From Blepharisma japonicum (taxonomy: Eukaryota; Ciliophora; Heterotrichea; Heterotrichida; Blepharismidae), in assembly GCA_949751835.1 (NCBI GenBank), contig CATKHK010000159.1, positions 1 to 41,747 of the forward strand: 41,747 nt of DNA, given 5' to 3'. The notes beneath the pieces are model-generated. The model was not told where the DNA came from, searched no databases, and saw nothing but the letters and a program-made list of their open reading frames with translations. The position numbers and the translations under genes are program-made. Below, piece after piece: positions 1,951 to 23,000 of the stretch. The first letter of the stretch is position 1. The number at the start of each line of letters is the position of its first letter.

Positions 1951-2787
1951 TTAAAATAAATCACAGCAAACACTTTTTTGCTTTTTTTGAATTTTTTTAA
2001 CCTTCTTTGCACTTAAATCAAATGAATAATAAATTTTATTTTTCATAGACATATATGTAGCAATAATAACTGAATTTTTGTATGTAATTCATGGTATATT
2101 CGCTCCACTCAAACTAAAGCGTGGGCAAGTAAGTTGGCTTCAGCTATATTCATCTTTAAGCCCACTTTCAAAAATTATGCCTCCGTTTATTACTAAATAA
2201 GCCCTAGAATTCTGAGCAAATATTATTTTATCTTTACTTTCACCTCCTTGAAATTCAAATATTACTGAATAGCTATCAATGCTGATATCATATTGAAATA
2301 TTTCGGAAATTGAAAAAGACGATATTAAAACTGCATTTTTATAAAAAATGCATGCACATCAAGAAATTTTTTTTGGGAATTTACACATTTTACTTCAAAC
2401 GTCTTTAGCCAAATCATACTTATAGGCAAAATCGTTATTAGGTGTCCATCATCCCCCAAAAGCATAAAGAGACCCTTTTCAATAAAAATTCAGAGGTCCT
2501 GGGCAGAGGGATTTTTCTAAATATCTTCTCCTTACACAAAAAGTTTTAGCATCTATTATTCATAAGCAATTATCAGGAGTATGAAAAATAAATTCATCTT
2601 TATATTGAACTAAGCTGATATTATAAGTCGCTTCGTAATTTTTGCTTAGAATTTTTTCAGTAGATTCTTCAATTTCTGCATCAAAAATGTCAATTTGTCA
2701 TTCTTTTGCATTATTGTCAAGTGTAAAAAGATACCTGCTATTGTTTGTGCTGAATTTTCAGTGTTTTTGAGAAGAAAGTTTAACCAT
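1951..2787 (-). CDS. Kelch-like beta-propeller protein (278 aa)
   Basis: Invisible with the standard code, but a continuous 279-codon frame (stop included) once UGA is Trp: ATG at 2785-2787, stop TAA at 1951-1953. Nine Trp are UGA and one is UGG. An in-frame TAA lies two codons upstream of the ATG, supporting this start. Kelch-like signatures recur, for example YAFGGWW near the middle and Tyr-Asp pairs followed about 5 residues later by Trp (KYDLAKDVW). A late blade reads RAYLVINGGIIFESG. Length suits four to five blades without the N-terminal B-box/coiled-coil part seen in the gene at 8607-9926. The next gene upstream is a diverged paralog in the same orientation. Kelch propellers bind other proteins; the partner is unknown. 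Open frame sure; family call fairly sure. Confidence 0.75.
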
Positions 2788-3169
2788 GATTTAAAATTGC
2801 TTCTTAATAGAAAGTTATAGAAAGAAATTCAGAATTTAAAAGGGGATATTATTATTAAATTGATAAAATTTAAATCTTTTGAGTTTATTTAAATTTAATA
2901 GCTATATCATAGGAAAAGTAAGAAAAAAATTCTTTAGAAATAAGAAATGAAAATTTGATTAATTTTATTATTAGTCTCTCTTTAATAATCTATTAAATAT
3001 ATAAAGTTAACAAAAAACCAATAATGAATAGCTATGATAGAGTACTAGAAATTCTTAATTCATTATCAGCATACTATAAATATTGATTTATTTTAACAAG
3101 TATTAAATATAACACTTATTCTTTTATTTTTCCGATTTATTATTATATTGATAATATTTATTTAATTTT
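2788..3169. other. Spacer between two Kelch-like paralogs
   Basis: 382 bp of AT-rich DNA holding the 3' flank of the split paralog and the upstream region of the intact one. No open frame or structured element seen. Confidence 0.6.
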
Positions 3170-4527
3170 TTAAAGTTCGATTTGCTCAATGTTTTTAGTG
3201 CTTAAGTCAAATAAATAAAAAATTTTTTGAAAATGATTTTGCATAAAACAATTTGTTTCAAAATAAACATAATTATTATATGAAATTCATGGAATATGAG
3301 TACCTATTATTTTGATATTTCATTTAAGAGAAAGGAGATTTCATTTATACTCATCTTCAGGTCCACTTTCAAAAACTCCACCTCCATCTATTACTAAATA
3401 TGCTCTAGAATTTCCAACAAATATTACCTCGCATTTTTTTTCACTTCATTCCAAAAATGATATGATTGAATAGCTATCAGCTATGATGTCATAAAGAAAT
3501 ATTTCGGAATGTAAAAAGGACGCTATTAAAATCAAATTTTTTTGTTTTTATTAATTTTTTACTAGCAAGCGCTTTTCGCGCCAAAAAAGAAAGAAAGAAC
3601 CAAGTGAAATTGAAAGTGCTGAAGGTGATGGAGACTCTGTGGGAATTGTTGAGATATGTCCTGCTACTGGTGGCCTATTTCGGAGGCTCGAATAGGTGGT
3701 GCATCAATGGCTGGATCTTGTATTGGAGATTGTGTAGTAGACATGGAGATTCATTTGGAGTTCTTGATGGCGAAGTATTTAAAGTTGGGGTTTTCGAATA
3801 TGAACTGGATGCTTGATTTTTGTCGCGAATTTAATACAACATAGACTGGCAAAGTTTTTAATTGGCCGATTTCGGATGAATATTGTGCGAATCTGTGATT
3901 CAGTTAAAAACTAAAATTAGGAAAGTGATTCAATGAGGATGCGGCAAAAAAATATAAAGAGAAGTTTGAGGATGTTGATACGGAAATTGAAAGGTTTATT
4001 TATCTGATTGTGAAAAAAGAGAGAAATGCTGCTCATGCAGCGATAGATAGGTTTAATAATAATAAAATCAAATTTTTATAGTAAACACATGAGCAGCAGC
4101 AAAGTTTTTTTGAAAAATTACTGATTTTCATTCATTTATCTTGCATTAAATCATATTTATATGCAAAATTATTATTGCCGGCTATGAATCATCCTTCAAA
4201 AGAATAAAAAGTGTTATCTCAATATAAACTAAAAGGCCCAGAGCAGCAATATTTTGGAATATTTCTGTATGAGATATCAAGGGTTTTAGCATTTATTAGT
4301 CATAGTTTTTCACCTCCTCGACTTCTCGCACAAATTAGTTCTCCACTTTTGAATTGAATACTATTTATATCATAATTGGGTCAAAATCCTGCATTAGACT
4401 CATTCGATTTTTGGGTTTCTGCATCAAAAGTGTATACCTGCAAATTATTTAAATCATTATTGAGTGCATAAAGATATCGACTATAATTGAAGCTATATTC
4501 TTGAGAAAGTTGAGGGATTTTTATCAT
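3170..4527 (-). CDS. Kelch-like paralog split by a 536-bp insertion
   Basis: With UGA as Trp the frame opens at the ATG at 4525-4527 and runs to about 4064. A second frame with the same homology runs from about 3541 to the TAA at 3170-3172. Between them lies foreign sequence bounded by 15-bp direct repeats. Leaving out exactly 536 bp (one repeat plus the unique part) leaves 822 nt, 274 codons with the stop, no internal stop, aligned end to end with the intact paralog (shared motifs FAYKYDL, SRAYLVI.GG, FESG..DEY.W). Read without removal, translation enters the insert and stops within about 20 codons. All nine Trp codons are UGA. Either a functional gene whose insert is removed from most copies, or a recently broken gene. 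Confidence 0.75.
3527..3541. repeat. Left 15-bp direct repeat of the insertion
   Basis: TAAAATCAAATTTTT, identical to 4063-4077. One copy belongs to the coding sequence of the interrupted Kelch gene (in the reading strand it covers codons for Asn-Leu-Ile-Leu and neighbours), the other was created by or used in the insertion. Confidence 0.85.
3566..3905 (+). pseudogene. Possible decayed ISXO2/Merlin-type transposase fragment inside the insertion
   Basis: Read with UGA as Trp, pieces in three frames line up in the order of the N-terminal half of ISXO2-like (IS1595/Merlin) transposases. First comes a Cys-containing stretch (VEICPATGG), then an Arg-Trp-Cys piece (NRWCIN). Next is a helix-rich stretch after a Gly-Ser (GSCIGD...) with LEFLMAKYLKLGFSN and DFCREF, then DWQSF. 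The family normally shows a zinc-binding pair, Arg-Trp-x-Cys, Ser...Gly-Ser, a helix-turn-helix-like region and Asp-Trp..Phe. The frames are broken by shifts and by TAG at 3842-3844, and no DDE catalytic core is present. The match is by eye and could be chance. Confidence 0.3.
4063..4077. repeat. Right 15-bp direct repeat of the insertion
   Basis: Identical to 3527-3541. On the outer side it continues straight into the upstream half of the Kelch frame. Confidence 0.85.
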
Positions 4528-4655
4528 TAGTTTTTAATAATATAAAAATTAAATTGATTTTTGTAATAAAAAGAATGAATATTGTAGATTAGCACTTGCA
4601 ATTTCTTCTTCTGATGCACTCAAATTACTCTGCTATCATTATAAAATGGTATTTA

Positions 4656-4814
4656 CTATTTTTCAATAAAGCGCACTTTCGTGCCAAATAGTGGAGCATC
4701 TTCTGGTAACTGAGGTTTCGAGAAGCTTGGGGAACATTTTTGAAGGATTGTGTAGGATTCGAGGTGGCGCAAAGTGATGCACGAATTTTCTATTTTATAC
4801 AATTTGAGATGCTT
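4656..4814 (-). pseudogene. Orphan C-terminal coding fragment (52 codons)
   Basis: A block richer in G and C than its AT-rich surroundings carries a minus-strand frame without ATG, opening after a TAA at 4815-4817 and ending in TAG at 4656-4658. Its end (QLPEDAPLFGTKVRFIEK) looks like real protein, as if the last exon or tail of a longer gene had been left behind. The family is not recognised. It may be the displaced tail of the adjacent pseudogene or a fragment moved by the same activity as the 3527-4062 insertion. Chance is possible for so short a frame. Confidence 0.3.
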
Positions 4815-6201: not shown

Positions 6202-7482
6202 TTATAGATTTTCTTTACTGGATCTAAGTTTAGCTATAGCAAGCTCCAGTTCATTCTCTGACTGTTCCAGTGCTTCTCTCGCTTCTTCTTGTGTAAACCC
6301 AAGACTAAAAATAATCGCAATCTTCTCTTCTAAATCTTCCATCTCTTTTTTCAAAGCCTGTAAAATCACATGCAGCTTGTCCCCAAACTTACCTCCAAGT
6401 GGAGTGCTAAGTCTCCAAATTCCATTATATCTTCCTTCTTTTTCTGGAATTTGTATAGGAGCTCCAATTTCGATTTCTTCTCCAGGCTTTGCAGAAACCA
6501 CTGCAGTTCTTTCACCTCCTAACTCCCCTTTTGTATGGGTCAATAAGCACCCATCAGGCCACGGGTCGCATCCATCATTTTTGACTCTTCATATTTTGAA
6601 GACTGTTGACCCTGGCTCAAATGTGTCGCATTCTTTCATATTTACATGACTGATAAATTGCATTTTTGGCTTTCTGCATTTCACGAATTTTTTAATATTT
6701 TTTCATGTGTTTTTCATAAAGCAGCATTTGCGAGGTTTTTCTGGCTTAGAACAGCATCATTTTCTGATTGGAAATGAAGGGATTTGGAAAGGTGGAGGAG
6801 GGAGGAGATGAACAGGCGGAGGAGGAAGGGTTTGGACTGGCGGAGGAGGGAGAGTTTGGACTGGTGGAGGAGGCAAGGTTTGAGTTTGTGGAGCAGGAAG
6901 TTGAGCTTTTATAAAAGAGACAGGATTTTCTAACGATTTCAGCTTTAAAAAAGGATGAGGGTGTTTAAGAGTGTCCTCACAAAGCCCACAATAATCCAAA
7001 TCACTACAAACTGTACAGTGATATCTAGCCCCAATAATCGGAGATTTCCCACATCCTCCACAAGTGTAATTTTCCCATATCGTTCCTTCAGAAGTTTTGT
7101 ACCCCATTGTCTTCTCAAGCTCAGTTCTGACAATATCCTTGACATACCCATTCCACTTATCGTCAAAAACCCAGTCAAACTCTGATTTTGCTATTATTTG
7201 AGGGATTTCTTCAACAGATTCTTTAGGAGGAATTTCTTCATCTAAAATAAGTTTAAAGCTAGGTAACTTTAGCCTCGCAACCATATTGTAAGCGTCTTGA
7301 AGTTCCTGATCACAAGAAATGGTGATCATATCATTTTCATCATCTCGGTACCGATATCTGAAATTGGCATGACCATAGAGCTTGGTGATTTCTTGTCGAA
7401 GATCTTCTATTGTGTGTGGGATTCTTTTTAGTTTTCTGATTTGATCTTTGTAAGAGATCTTTAGGGGTGTGTTCAGACTCAT
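6202..7482 (-). CDS. NBR1: NBR1-like selective autophagy receptor (426 aa)
   Basis: One continuous frame with UGA as Trp (UGA at residues 242, 260 and 298). Order: PB1 domain (residues 6-82) with the acidic loop YRDDENDMITISCDQEL; ZZ zinc finger (about 139-176; CGGC, CTVC, CGLC, then His-x-His); a Pro-rich linker with repeated TLPPPPVQ; FW domain (about 275-380); C-terminal UBA (about 385-422, SLGFTQEEAREAL). In the FW domain Trp298 (UGA), Trp308 and Trp356 match conserved tryptophans, while the last is His (KLHVIL). FDWV at 102-105 after an acidic residue is a candidate Atg8-binding LIR. By family knowledge NBR1 oligomerises through PB1, binds ubiquitin through UBA and links cargo to Atg8 on the phagophore. 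Domain order makes the assignment strong. Confidence 0.93.
6797..6905 (-). repeat. 24-nt minisatellite encoding TLPPPPVQ repeats
   Basis: Three to four tandem 24-nt units inside the NBR1-like gene encode the proline-rich linker between the ZZ and FW domains (residues about 202-233). The first copies are nearly identical in DNA; the last (HLLPPPPFQ) has diverged. Copy number is likely to vary between strains. Confidence 0.8.
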
Positions 7483-20023: not shown

Positions 20024-23000
20024 TTAAATTATCTCAATCAAGAAATATATTGCAACAACTAAAAAATTTTTTGCAGAGTCTAAACTAAGAGGTATTAGAG
20101 CAGGGACTGCAAGCGTTTTAATAGTTAATACAACCTCATTTTCTGAAAACTGTGGATTTCCTGGATAATTATTTCCACAGACAACATATACATTATAGTC
20201 TGTAGATCCATTCAATCCACTAATAGTCACATTGGTAGCTACTCTTGCATACATTTTTGAAGAAATAGATGGGACTATTTTATTCTCAGAATCCACCCCT
20301 AATACAACTTGCTGAGGTATTGGCACTGAAGTATTATTTTTATTAGCCACAGCAGTTGTATATATAAATCCATCTTCTTTAAGTGTCGCTGAAATAGTAA
20401 TTTCACTATATTTCCCTGCCGTATAAACTTTAGGGGATATATCATAAATACAAGGTTGGAAATAGACAGCTTGAATTTTTGCTCTAGAAGATTGATTATA
20501 ATAAGGGATGAGGCTGGAAAATGATGGCTGGAGTAGCCTACTAATAATTGTTTGTGGAGTTGGATAGTTTGTGCTTGTTAAATCATCAACAATATAATAA
20601 AGCAAAGTCCCATTAGTTTGTGCAAGTCTTCTTGATCCACTTGATGTAGAAATCAGCCTTGTCTCAGGCAAACTTAATACAGTCCTTAGAGCTGTTTCTA
20701 TAGACTCCACTTGAGATTTTGTTAAATAAGTTTGATTAAAATGAAGCTCAGCCATTGCAGCAGAATACCTAGAATCTGTCACAAACTCACAAGAAGATGC
20801 ATCAGAAGAGATTTTTCCAGTCATATCTTCAAGCCACACATAAAGCACATATGAGGTTTCAGATAAAAGACCATCAATTTCAATATCATTATTAACTCCA
20901 CCAGACAAAATTAAAGACCCAAATACAGTTTTAGTTACATTAGAGCTTAAAACTTGGTTTTTCGTATCTAAAAAGGAAGATTTTGGTGTCCCAAATAGTG
21001 ATAATGAGTAGTAAGCAATGGCTGCCTTATTTGATGAAATAGAAAAGCTTGCAGAGATTTTCCCTGATTTTTCTAAAATAAGAGAATTTATTGAGGGGGA
21101 TATGCTGTCGCTCGAAGTAATGTCAAAAGAAACGCTGGCTGGGATATTTTTGTATATAAATTTGTTTGTACCTGATAAAGAAATAGTTAATAAAGGGACT
21201 CCTGATAGTTTTATATCACTTGATGCTGATATATTGAATTTTTGTATATAAGAATTTGAGGTAAATTGCAGAGTAGAGGGTGAAACAGTTAAGCCAGAGC
21301 TGGTGTATGAAATTCCTAAAGAAACTGATACATCTTCTGTAGGTGCTGCATCAAGAATAAACGATAATGGCAAACTAGTGCCACCAACTGGAACTGATAG
21401 AATTCCACTAATATTTGAGCCTAAATTTCTTAAATGGATTACTCTTAAATAGCTTTCGAAAATGGGTGTATAGAATGGAGATGGCAGTTCTCCACTTATT
21501 GTCCATTGAATTATATAAGTTCCTGGAATTGTCTGATAAGGAACTGAAATTGTAAATGACGCTTTTATTTGTCCTACAGACAATGATACTTGGCTTGGTG
21601 TAAAAATGTAGCCTTCACAGTTAGGTATTAAAATCAAGTCTAAAGCACATGGGTAGTCAAGTGTTATAAAAACTTCTCTAGAAGTCGACCCTGCTTCCAC
21701 ACTGACAATTTCATCAGAATTTATTTTAATTAAAGGCCCTGGGTATATATAATCAAAATCATAATAATTTATATTTTGATAAGTCCGGTCCATAACAGCC
21801 TGATTTACACCATCATAAGTCCTGACTACCAAAGACCCCACTTTTCCTTCATAAAGAGGGTTTGGAATATTTTTAACCGTAATTTCTAAATTCCCAGCAT
21901 ATGCATTGCTGTTTCCTTCAATTTTGATAGTATTATAATATTTTTCTATATATGGTGCTCCATTTTGCCAGAAATTACTTGTGGTGCATTCGGGGTTTGC
22001 ATTATCAAGGGAATACTGGCTTGGAAAATCCACCAAGATTTCGCCTCCATTTTCTTGGCTAGGGACTATATCATTAAAAGTGATATCTAAAGTAAAACTA
22101 TTAGAGTACCTTGTATATAAATTTAAGCTGAATAAAGAGTCTAGGAGCATTATACTAGGAGACTCATATATTAAAACAGGCCCTGCTTTGTCGTTATATT
22201 GAATTCATGTATTTTCGCTTATTACTCCTACCTTAAAATAATCAGTTTTAGCTGAAGTGTAGGAAGGGTTAATAATTCCATATAGAGAAATATTAATTTT
22301 GCATGATGGGCAATAGGTGTAATCAGAGGCCAAAGTTATTAAAATTTCGTGGTCATTTGAGCTGTCACAAGACATATCATAGGATCCTGAACATTTTATA
22401 GAATTTCCAAGCCAATTGTCATAAGAAATTGGGAATATTATAGAAATGCTATAATCTGTAGTAAAACTTGCAGAAGGTAAAATATAAAATTCATAAGTAG
22501 CGATTTCACCTTCATTTTTAGGGTAAAAAACTATATCAGATATAGACAAAGCGTTTGGATCTCCCACTATTTTAGCTGAAAAAGTGCTTGGTAGCGTAGT
22601 ATCTAAAGTGACACCATTAAACTCTGTATGCACATAAAATGGTGAAAAAGTCCCTTGGTCAGGGTTTTGTATTTGTCTTACCCTTATAATAAAATTTCCT
22701 TCAATTTTGCTTGCTGTTACTGCTATAATTTCTGCACCATTCATAGTGCAAGATTTTAAAATTCCACTATCTAAAATGCATGATAAAGGTGACGGAAATA
22801 CTGCATATTGGCTTGGAAAATGTATATGAATAGATCCTCCTATAGGAATATAATTTGTCACTGTGCAAGAAAACATATAATCTGCATATAAATATCTATT
22901 GCTCGGAAATGGGCTTAAATCTGCACAAAATAACTCCCCAGCAGTAAATTGGGTATCAAAATTTAATTCGGGTATAGAATTAAAGCTATCAATTGTGTAT

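Follow-up and report, generated by a model that had tools for sequence, protein, structure and literature searches.

A weakly Kelch-like gene of Blepharisma japonicum is split by a 521-bp insert, and this insert is very probably a SINE-like retroposon that was mobilized by a LINE through target-primed reverse transcription and hit one of two gene copies after their duplication. The window examined here is contig C159 at its full length (41,747 nucleotides), from an assembly of 45.2 Mb in 224 contigs. In the element RNA that we propose, a hairpin head at the 5' end would be followed by one or two hairpins in the central part, and the 3' end would consist of GAGAGAAATGC, a stem-loop, and GCG(N)TAAA with TAA repeats after it. 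A LINE of the family found on C41, C185, and C33, with a stem-loop tail at its own 3' end, would supply the endonuclease and the reverse transcriptase. The RNA would then be copied into a staggered nick by target-primed reverse transcription, producing the 15-bp target-site duplication. The gene would already have existed as two recent duplicates when the insertion entered one of them, and the copy on C5 would have stayed intact. In the window copy, the SINE body (to position 3953) would have been joined to a LINE 3' coding end; template switching or an RNA chimera would be the simplest route.

The first-pass annotation had described an insertion between 15-bp direct repeats whose removal restores a gene. 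The repeats are real: TAAAATCAAATTTTT is a perfect repeat spaced by 536 bp, around an interior of 521 bp, and it has just these two exact occurrences in the whole window. With up to two mismatches there were 10 matches in the window versus 4.3 expected, and 10 was reached in 2 of 100 shuffles. By itself, an AT-rich 15-bp repeat is modest evidence for insertion. The two halves of the gene were also said to be open in mismatched frames, and they are when TGA is read in frame as tryptophan, as our frame analysis of the locus indicates (minus strand; 5' half open over 4003-4533, 3' half over 3173-3547). UGA as tryptophan and CCCTAACA as the telomere are described for Blepharisma in passages of PMC9942806. 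When one repeat and the interior are omitted, a joined frame runs from an ATG at 4527 to a TAA at 3170-3172. Its 822 nt are open as reported, but they hold 273 codons plus a stop rather than 274 codons without one, and the openness needs tryptophan at nine in-frame TGA codons. The neighboring paralog is likewise open. The Kelch likeness is weak (PF24681, E=3e-4, 20.6 bits versus a 50-bit cut-off).

The decisive evidence for an insertion comes from a second locus. Positions 28281-29826 of contig C5 (minus strand) are a 90-94% copy of window 2700-3541 joined to 4060-4798; by segment, identity is 90% over 2700-3541, 94% over 4060-4798, and 95% over 4078-4560. This locus has no insert and one TAAAATCAAATTTTT, and it carries an intact, ~95% identical gene duplicate (C5:28543-29367) whose frame, counted from its ATG, stays open for 272 codons. 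In an assembly search, the right flank (4078-4560) matched C5:28517-28998 at 95%, with no further match at E 0.01 beyond its own locus and this diverged duplicate. Within the 10 kb examined, the similarity to C5 breaks off at either end, so C5 holds a duplicate of the segment rather than an allele. The C5 locus is the pre-insertion site; its target site is unduplicated, and so the insertion took place after the gene had been duplicated. A head-only repeat fragment (AGCGCACTTTCGTGCCAAATAG..., window 4671-4798), a relative of the SINE head, lies close to one end of this segment; it is older than the duplication because both gene copies have it. The features are listed in Table 1.

Table 1. Features of the split-gene locus (window positions) and members of the element family
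Feature	Location	Strand	Remarks
Split gene, weakly Kelch-like	3170..4527	-	5' half 4063-4527, 3' half 3170-3541; TGA=Trp
Older paralog of the split gene, uninterrupted	1951..2790	-	Open over 1954-2790 with TGA=Trp
Target-site duplication TAAAATCAAATTTTT, 15 bp, left copy	3527..3541		Occurs once at the C5 empty site
Target-site duplication TAAAATCAAATTTTT, right copy	4063..4077		Abuts the TAA-rich tail
SINE-like retroposon insert, 521 bp	3542..4062	+	Antisense to the gene; relatives across the genome
5' head hairpin	3567..3582	+	GGCGC-TTTTC-GCGCC in relatives, AGCGC in the window copy
Central hairpin module 1	3671..3696	+	CCTATT-TCG...CGAATAGG; compared with module 2 and other subfamilies
Central hairpin module 2	3863..3895	+	CCGATTTCG...CGAATC
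Putatively LINE-derived 3' end	3954..4052	+	Frame from 3941 reads AAKKYKEKFEDVDTEIERFIYLIVKKERNAAHAAIDRF
3' stem-loop GCTGC-TCAT-GCAGC after GAGAGAAAT	4028..4041	+	Covariance model match 4014-4051, 41 bits; training sequence
TAA-type tail TTTAATAATAA	4052..4062	+	Similar tail precedes the duplication in relatives
Head-only fragment of an older related element	4671..4688	+	Common to C159 and the C5 duplicate
Group A	window, C96:123.5k, C17, C18:513k, C195, C26
Group A2	C85, C100
Group B	C10:442k, C79, C96:154k
Group C	C180, C18:203k
Group D	C97
Partial copies	C15, C19, C39, window 4671 and its C5 twin		C15 5'-truncated; C19 tail-only; C39 decayed; window 4671 and C5 twin head-only

The insert belongs to a dispersed family. 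Searched against the assembly, it gave nine matches: its own locus in the window, one on each of seven more contigs (83-94% identity), and a second, short match on C85. At least 10 more loci hold bodies, heads, or tails that are related to it; all family copy counts are lower bounds. The copies diverge outside the element. The 3' motif GAGAGAAATGCNG was found at 16 places genome-wide and at 0 in the reversed control; four of the 16 (L040, L045, L049, and L051) were left out because by eye they resemble ordinary coding sequence. The head pattern occurred at 8 places genome-wide versus 0 for the reversed pattern. A central-motif pattern with one mismatch allowed gave 24 places versus 1 in the control, 11 of them known copies. 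Eleven of the remaining 13 were examined (C8:515465 and C10:490362 lay outside this set): L082 is a new copy; L083, L084, L085, and L088 were read as other DNA; and L089-L094 had no match in a screen with three motif words. Over the first ~308 bases, five group A copies share 90.9-99.0% identity, and the 99.0% likeness of the C17 and C195 copies implies recent activity. The element measures 327-541 bp, including one duplication copy, in eight copies. In ten copies, the longest frames from an ATG span 20-121 codons, and stop-to-stop frames reach at most 144 codons (TGA=Trp). As expected of a SINE, the repeat is short and dispersed and encodes no protein of its own; the window copy holds what appears to be a piece of a LINE coding end.

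Next to the body, we examined how the copies sit in the genome. The 70 bases before the head were compared with the 110 bases after the stem in 12 copies, with 300 shuffles each; L004 is without a 3' end, hence 11 copies are comparable, and L048 lay outside the tested set. Eight of the 11 had their own repeat of 11-16 bp, different in sequence in each and above the 95% shuffle level. Because each of the eight starts in the TAA-rich tail or at its end, the lengths may include tail bases: 15 bases in the window, 15 in C17 (19 with one mismatch), 12 in C85, 16 in C100, 11 in C26, 14 in C10, 11 in C96:154k, and 14 in C180. No duplication was found in L002, L005, or L046 among the 11. Elsewhere, the 8-base repeat of L099 was equalled in 283 of 500 shuffles and is no duplication, the 11-base repeat of L100 (30 of 500 shuffles) is doubtful, and L095 has a 7-base repeat. 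In the tail-only copy on C19 (L042), the 3' tail stands between 16-bp duplications (0 of 1000 shuffles), so duplications of variable length at the 3' tail are present in this copy as well as in 8 of 11. The 5'-truncated C26 copy is without the first ~230 bases of the element and has kept its 11-bp duplication. Target-primed reverse transcription characteristically leaves duplications of differing length, truncated 5' ends, and a constant 3' end; all three occur in this family, which points to that process.

A short, non-autonomous, dispersed element between direct repeats could also be a MITE, a deletion derivative of a DNA transposon like the Bogo MITEs. A MITE would carry terminal inverted repeats, whereas the insert ends have none, just AT-rich chance pairings of 73-87% near them. 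The variable 11-16-bp duplications, the 5' truncation, the tail-only copy, and the LINE-like coding end also argue against a MITE, and we consider it highly improbable.

The insert had previously been interpreted as a retained internal eliminated sequence (IES) or a recent transposon. The transposon part survives in the form of a dispersed retroposon family; for an IES, no hallmark beyond the TA was found. A true IES would normally be excised at TA-containing repeats during macronuclear development and would here have been retained by the assembly or by incomplete excision. The repeat does start with TA, and omission of one repeat and the interior does open the frame. According to passages of PMC9942856, about three-quarters of Blepharisma IESs are bounded by TA-containing direct repeats and some LINE loci of the Blepharisma macronucleus seem partly excised. 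However, the TA-containing repeat that TAAAATCAAATTTTT provides at both ends, taken earlier as an IES sign, is not discriminating: by inspection, TA occurs inside all eight copy duplications and that of the tail-only copy, and this is uninformative because most AT-rich 11-16-mers would contain TA. The ends are without terminal inverted repeats, and clean removal of any duplication-flanked insertion restores the old frame. Furthermore, all eight duplication-bearing copies are present in an apparently somatic assembly, and seven of them lie outside long frames (275 codons at the window copy, at most 73 at the others). The assembly is most likely somatic because frames of 708 and 1060 codons are unbroken, although B. 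stoltei has ~40,000 IESs, roughly one per kb (PMC9942856, in the passages covered). A true IES is improbable. In an assembly search, no allelic contig was found for window 20024-22150.

If the insert is a retroposon, the split copy is probably a plain dead gene, in which the retroposon is fixed, no excision takes place, and the loss is harmless given the C5 duplicate; this is an expected sub-case of the retroposon reading. The intact ~95% duplicate and a right flank without any other assembly copy are in keeping with it. Against it, neither a stop nor a frameshift is present in the split copy apart from the insert, and its comparison with C5 (14 synonymous and 28 non-synonymous changes) gives a dN/dS of 0.455. 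When polarized with the older paralog, the changes (synonymous/non-synonymous) are 4/7 for the split copy and 7/8 for C5, with 16 unassigned, and the 11 on the split-copy branch are too few to separate a dead gene from an excision-rescued one. An improbable variant is a retroposon becoming an IES, in which a domesticated excisase would precisely remove the insert through the TA-containing duplication in some somatic copies and the gene would work. PMC9942856 proposes that a target-site duplication with an excisase motif could allow clean excision, and the split-gene locus is compatible with that proposal; the anatomy of the insert is explained by retroposition. If true, the step that Fig. 6B of that paper draws for transposons would have been caught for a retroposon. 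The locus and its empty-site paralog offer a clean natural test of whether an IES excisase can remove a retroposon through a target-site duplication.

We then returned to the retroposon and its predicted RNA. Over the five pairs of the 3' stem in 15 sequences, 90.7% of cells were paired versus 75.8% in shuffles (0 of 500), with 12 double-changed cells; with 11 sequences, the values were 90.9% and 76.8%. Slid-alignment controls gave 20-68% pairing, below that of the stem. Two stricter counts were unexceptional: three pairs changed on both sides (reached in 113 of 500 shuffles) and seven further pair types (37 of 500); for the 11-sequence stem, the same counts were reached in 474 and 312 of 500. 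The alignments were padded by hand to line up the stems, and the shuffles ignore relatedness. Given these caveats, the pairing supports a predicted 3' stem that covaries through compensatory changes. The central hairpin CC(U/G)AUU-UCG...CGAAU(A/C)GG, which occurs twice in group A, was 89.8% paired versus 82.8% (1 of 500), and its two stricter counts were reached in 27 and 26 of 500 shuffles. The whole-element fold of one copy was unremarkable (z -1.8, 6 of 100 shuffles).

The head gave no sign of a classical origin. By eye, L053 holds a B-box-like GGTTCGAATC. ARAGORN found no tRNA in 11 loci, and no Rfam family reached its gathering score for the insert and four loci; the best Rfam candidate, DLEU2_4 (E 0.033, 22 of 40 bits, in the AT-rich tail), was taken as chance. 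Within this scope, no pol III promoter of tRNA, 5S, or 7SL origin was detected, and by the strict pol III definition the element is SINE-like. SINEs with LINE-derived heads do exist (PMC3747384, Table 1).

A candidate partner LINE was sought with an assembly profile search, in which RVT_1 matched at 32 places, including L028 on C41 (44 bits, above the cut-off) and L034 on C185 (28 bits, below it). The main RVT_1 LINE family (L009-L022) was rejected as the partner, since L022 has a TAA tail yet no stem-loop. In L022 (C69:1-420), this LINE 3' end with its TAA tail lies a few bases from contig-end telomere repeats, TGTTAGGG, the complement of CCCTAACA. The exact tail word of the element also occurs at C33:204672 (L095), where the covariance model R1, which was not trained there, scored 43 bits (E 9e-12 in 3746 bases). 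Just before this tail lie pieces of a LINE C-terminus in broken frames (IFRLRAGF..., CIGC, and LEDEIHLLNDC). In a 12-sequence set, the L028 C-terminus aligned with L095 at 1.4e-6 and with L034 at 1.6e-33. Pfam found nothing in three short L095 pieces, nor did tblastn of LINE protein pieces (at least 100 aa, ten loci, L028 excluded) against C33. L034 ends in GAGAGAGAGCAGTGCTGCGTTCCAGCGCTGAAGTTAG, which we read as a possible diverged form of the stem-loop tail; R1 gave no match there. A relaxed 14-mer of the tail occurred at 84 places versus 21 in the control (12 known, 4 fetched, and 68 others). Among those fetched, L095 is real, and L096, L097, and L098 were judged by eye to be chance, though L097 scored 20 bits and L098 17 bits. 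No intact LINE with the stem-loop tail was found in the 16 of 84 places covered: L095 is degraded, and L028 is without the tail in the DNA examined. A 3' end common to a LINE of the same genome, as expected of such SINEs, is therefore provisional, being seen in one degraded copy (L095).

The most telling trace of a LINE lies in the window copy itself. It departs from the other group A copies at 3954, and the frame from 3941, AAKKYKEKFEDVDTEIERFIYLIVKKERNAAHAAIDRF, scored (BLOSUM62) 60 to the L028 C-terminus and 53 to that of L034, each reached in 0 of 2000 shuffles. Against L095 it scored 37 (7 of 2000 shuffles) and, in the other L095 frame, 16 (1275 of 2000). As controls, 2982 random window pieces scored at most 38, and the other 10 copies scored 18-25. 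By these scores, the last ~110 nt of the insert encode a homologue of the L028 C-terminus, and the insert is an apparent SINE body joined to a LINE-like 3' end. Because the match at the DNA level stands out for L095 only, mostly through the tail (0 of 500 shuffles, versus 220 for L034 and 229 for L028), the donor was probably a diverged member outside the LINEs found. In the LINE-like frame (L028/L034/L095, window 3941-4060), the final codons contain the stem-loop, so selection may act on the tail both as coding sequence and as RNA structure. The position of the stem-loop and the SINE-LINE chimera bear on how LINEs choose their RNA templates.

SINE/LINE pairs generally show target-site duplications and 5' truncation, as this family does. 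In the "stringent" pairs described in passages of PMC3747384 (e.g., of the RTE and CR1 clades), stem-loops are common at the 3' ends, and the likeness extends to a non-autonomous body, a 3' end shared with the LINE, compensatory changes in the stem-loop, and a short-repeat tail other than poly(A). Unlike those pairs, the family has a head that matches no Rfam family or tRNA, a low copy number, and, in the insert, a stem-loop inside the last codons of a LINE-like frame. The putative SINEs of the Paramecium germline (PMC5405496) are likewise multicopy ciliate elements without a recognized protein, beside APE-RT LINEs; they are defined as non-coding multicopy inserts making up 0.04-0.53% of MIC assembly compartments, and the passages covered describe no shared tail. 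The LINE/RTE-X elements of B. stoltei (PMC9942806 and PMC9942856, in part) are also somatic retroelements, in a genome with UGA=Trp and the CCCTAACA telomere, but they are coding LINEs, and words beginning with "sine" are absent from the main texts of both papers. Bogo MITEs and TA-bound IESs of Blepharisma are non-autonomous dispersed inserts between direct repeats too; as described in passages of PMC9942856, they differ in being derived from DNA transposons, with terminal inverted repeats, and germline limited. SINE/LINE pairs and Paramecium SINEs are thus already known, and a SINE-like family of Blepharisma was not found in the open-access literature searched. Almost no mobile elements are expected in ciliate somatic genomes; this apparently somatic heterotrich assembly holds a SINE-like family with a candidate LINE partner, and the family has broken a gene.

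Three further observations concern single copies and the window. The group A copies L004 (C18:513543) and L002 (C96:123508) are without the normal 3' end, which is unusual for target-primed insertion. By eye against L003, L005 (C195:14645-15040) has lost an internal stretch flanked by a pair of TCTGTGATT-like direct repeats, a deletion that could be slippage or cryptic excision. Last, a 24-bp tandem repeat of 4.4 copies lies at window 6776-6882, inside a minus-strand frame of 241 codons.
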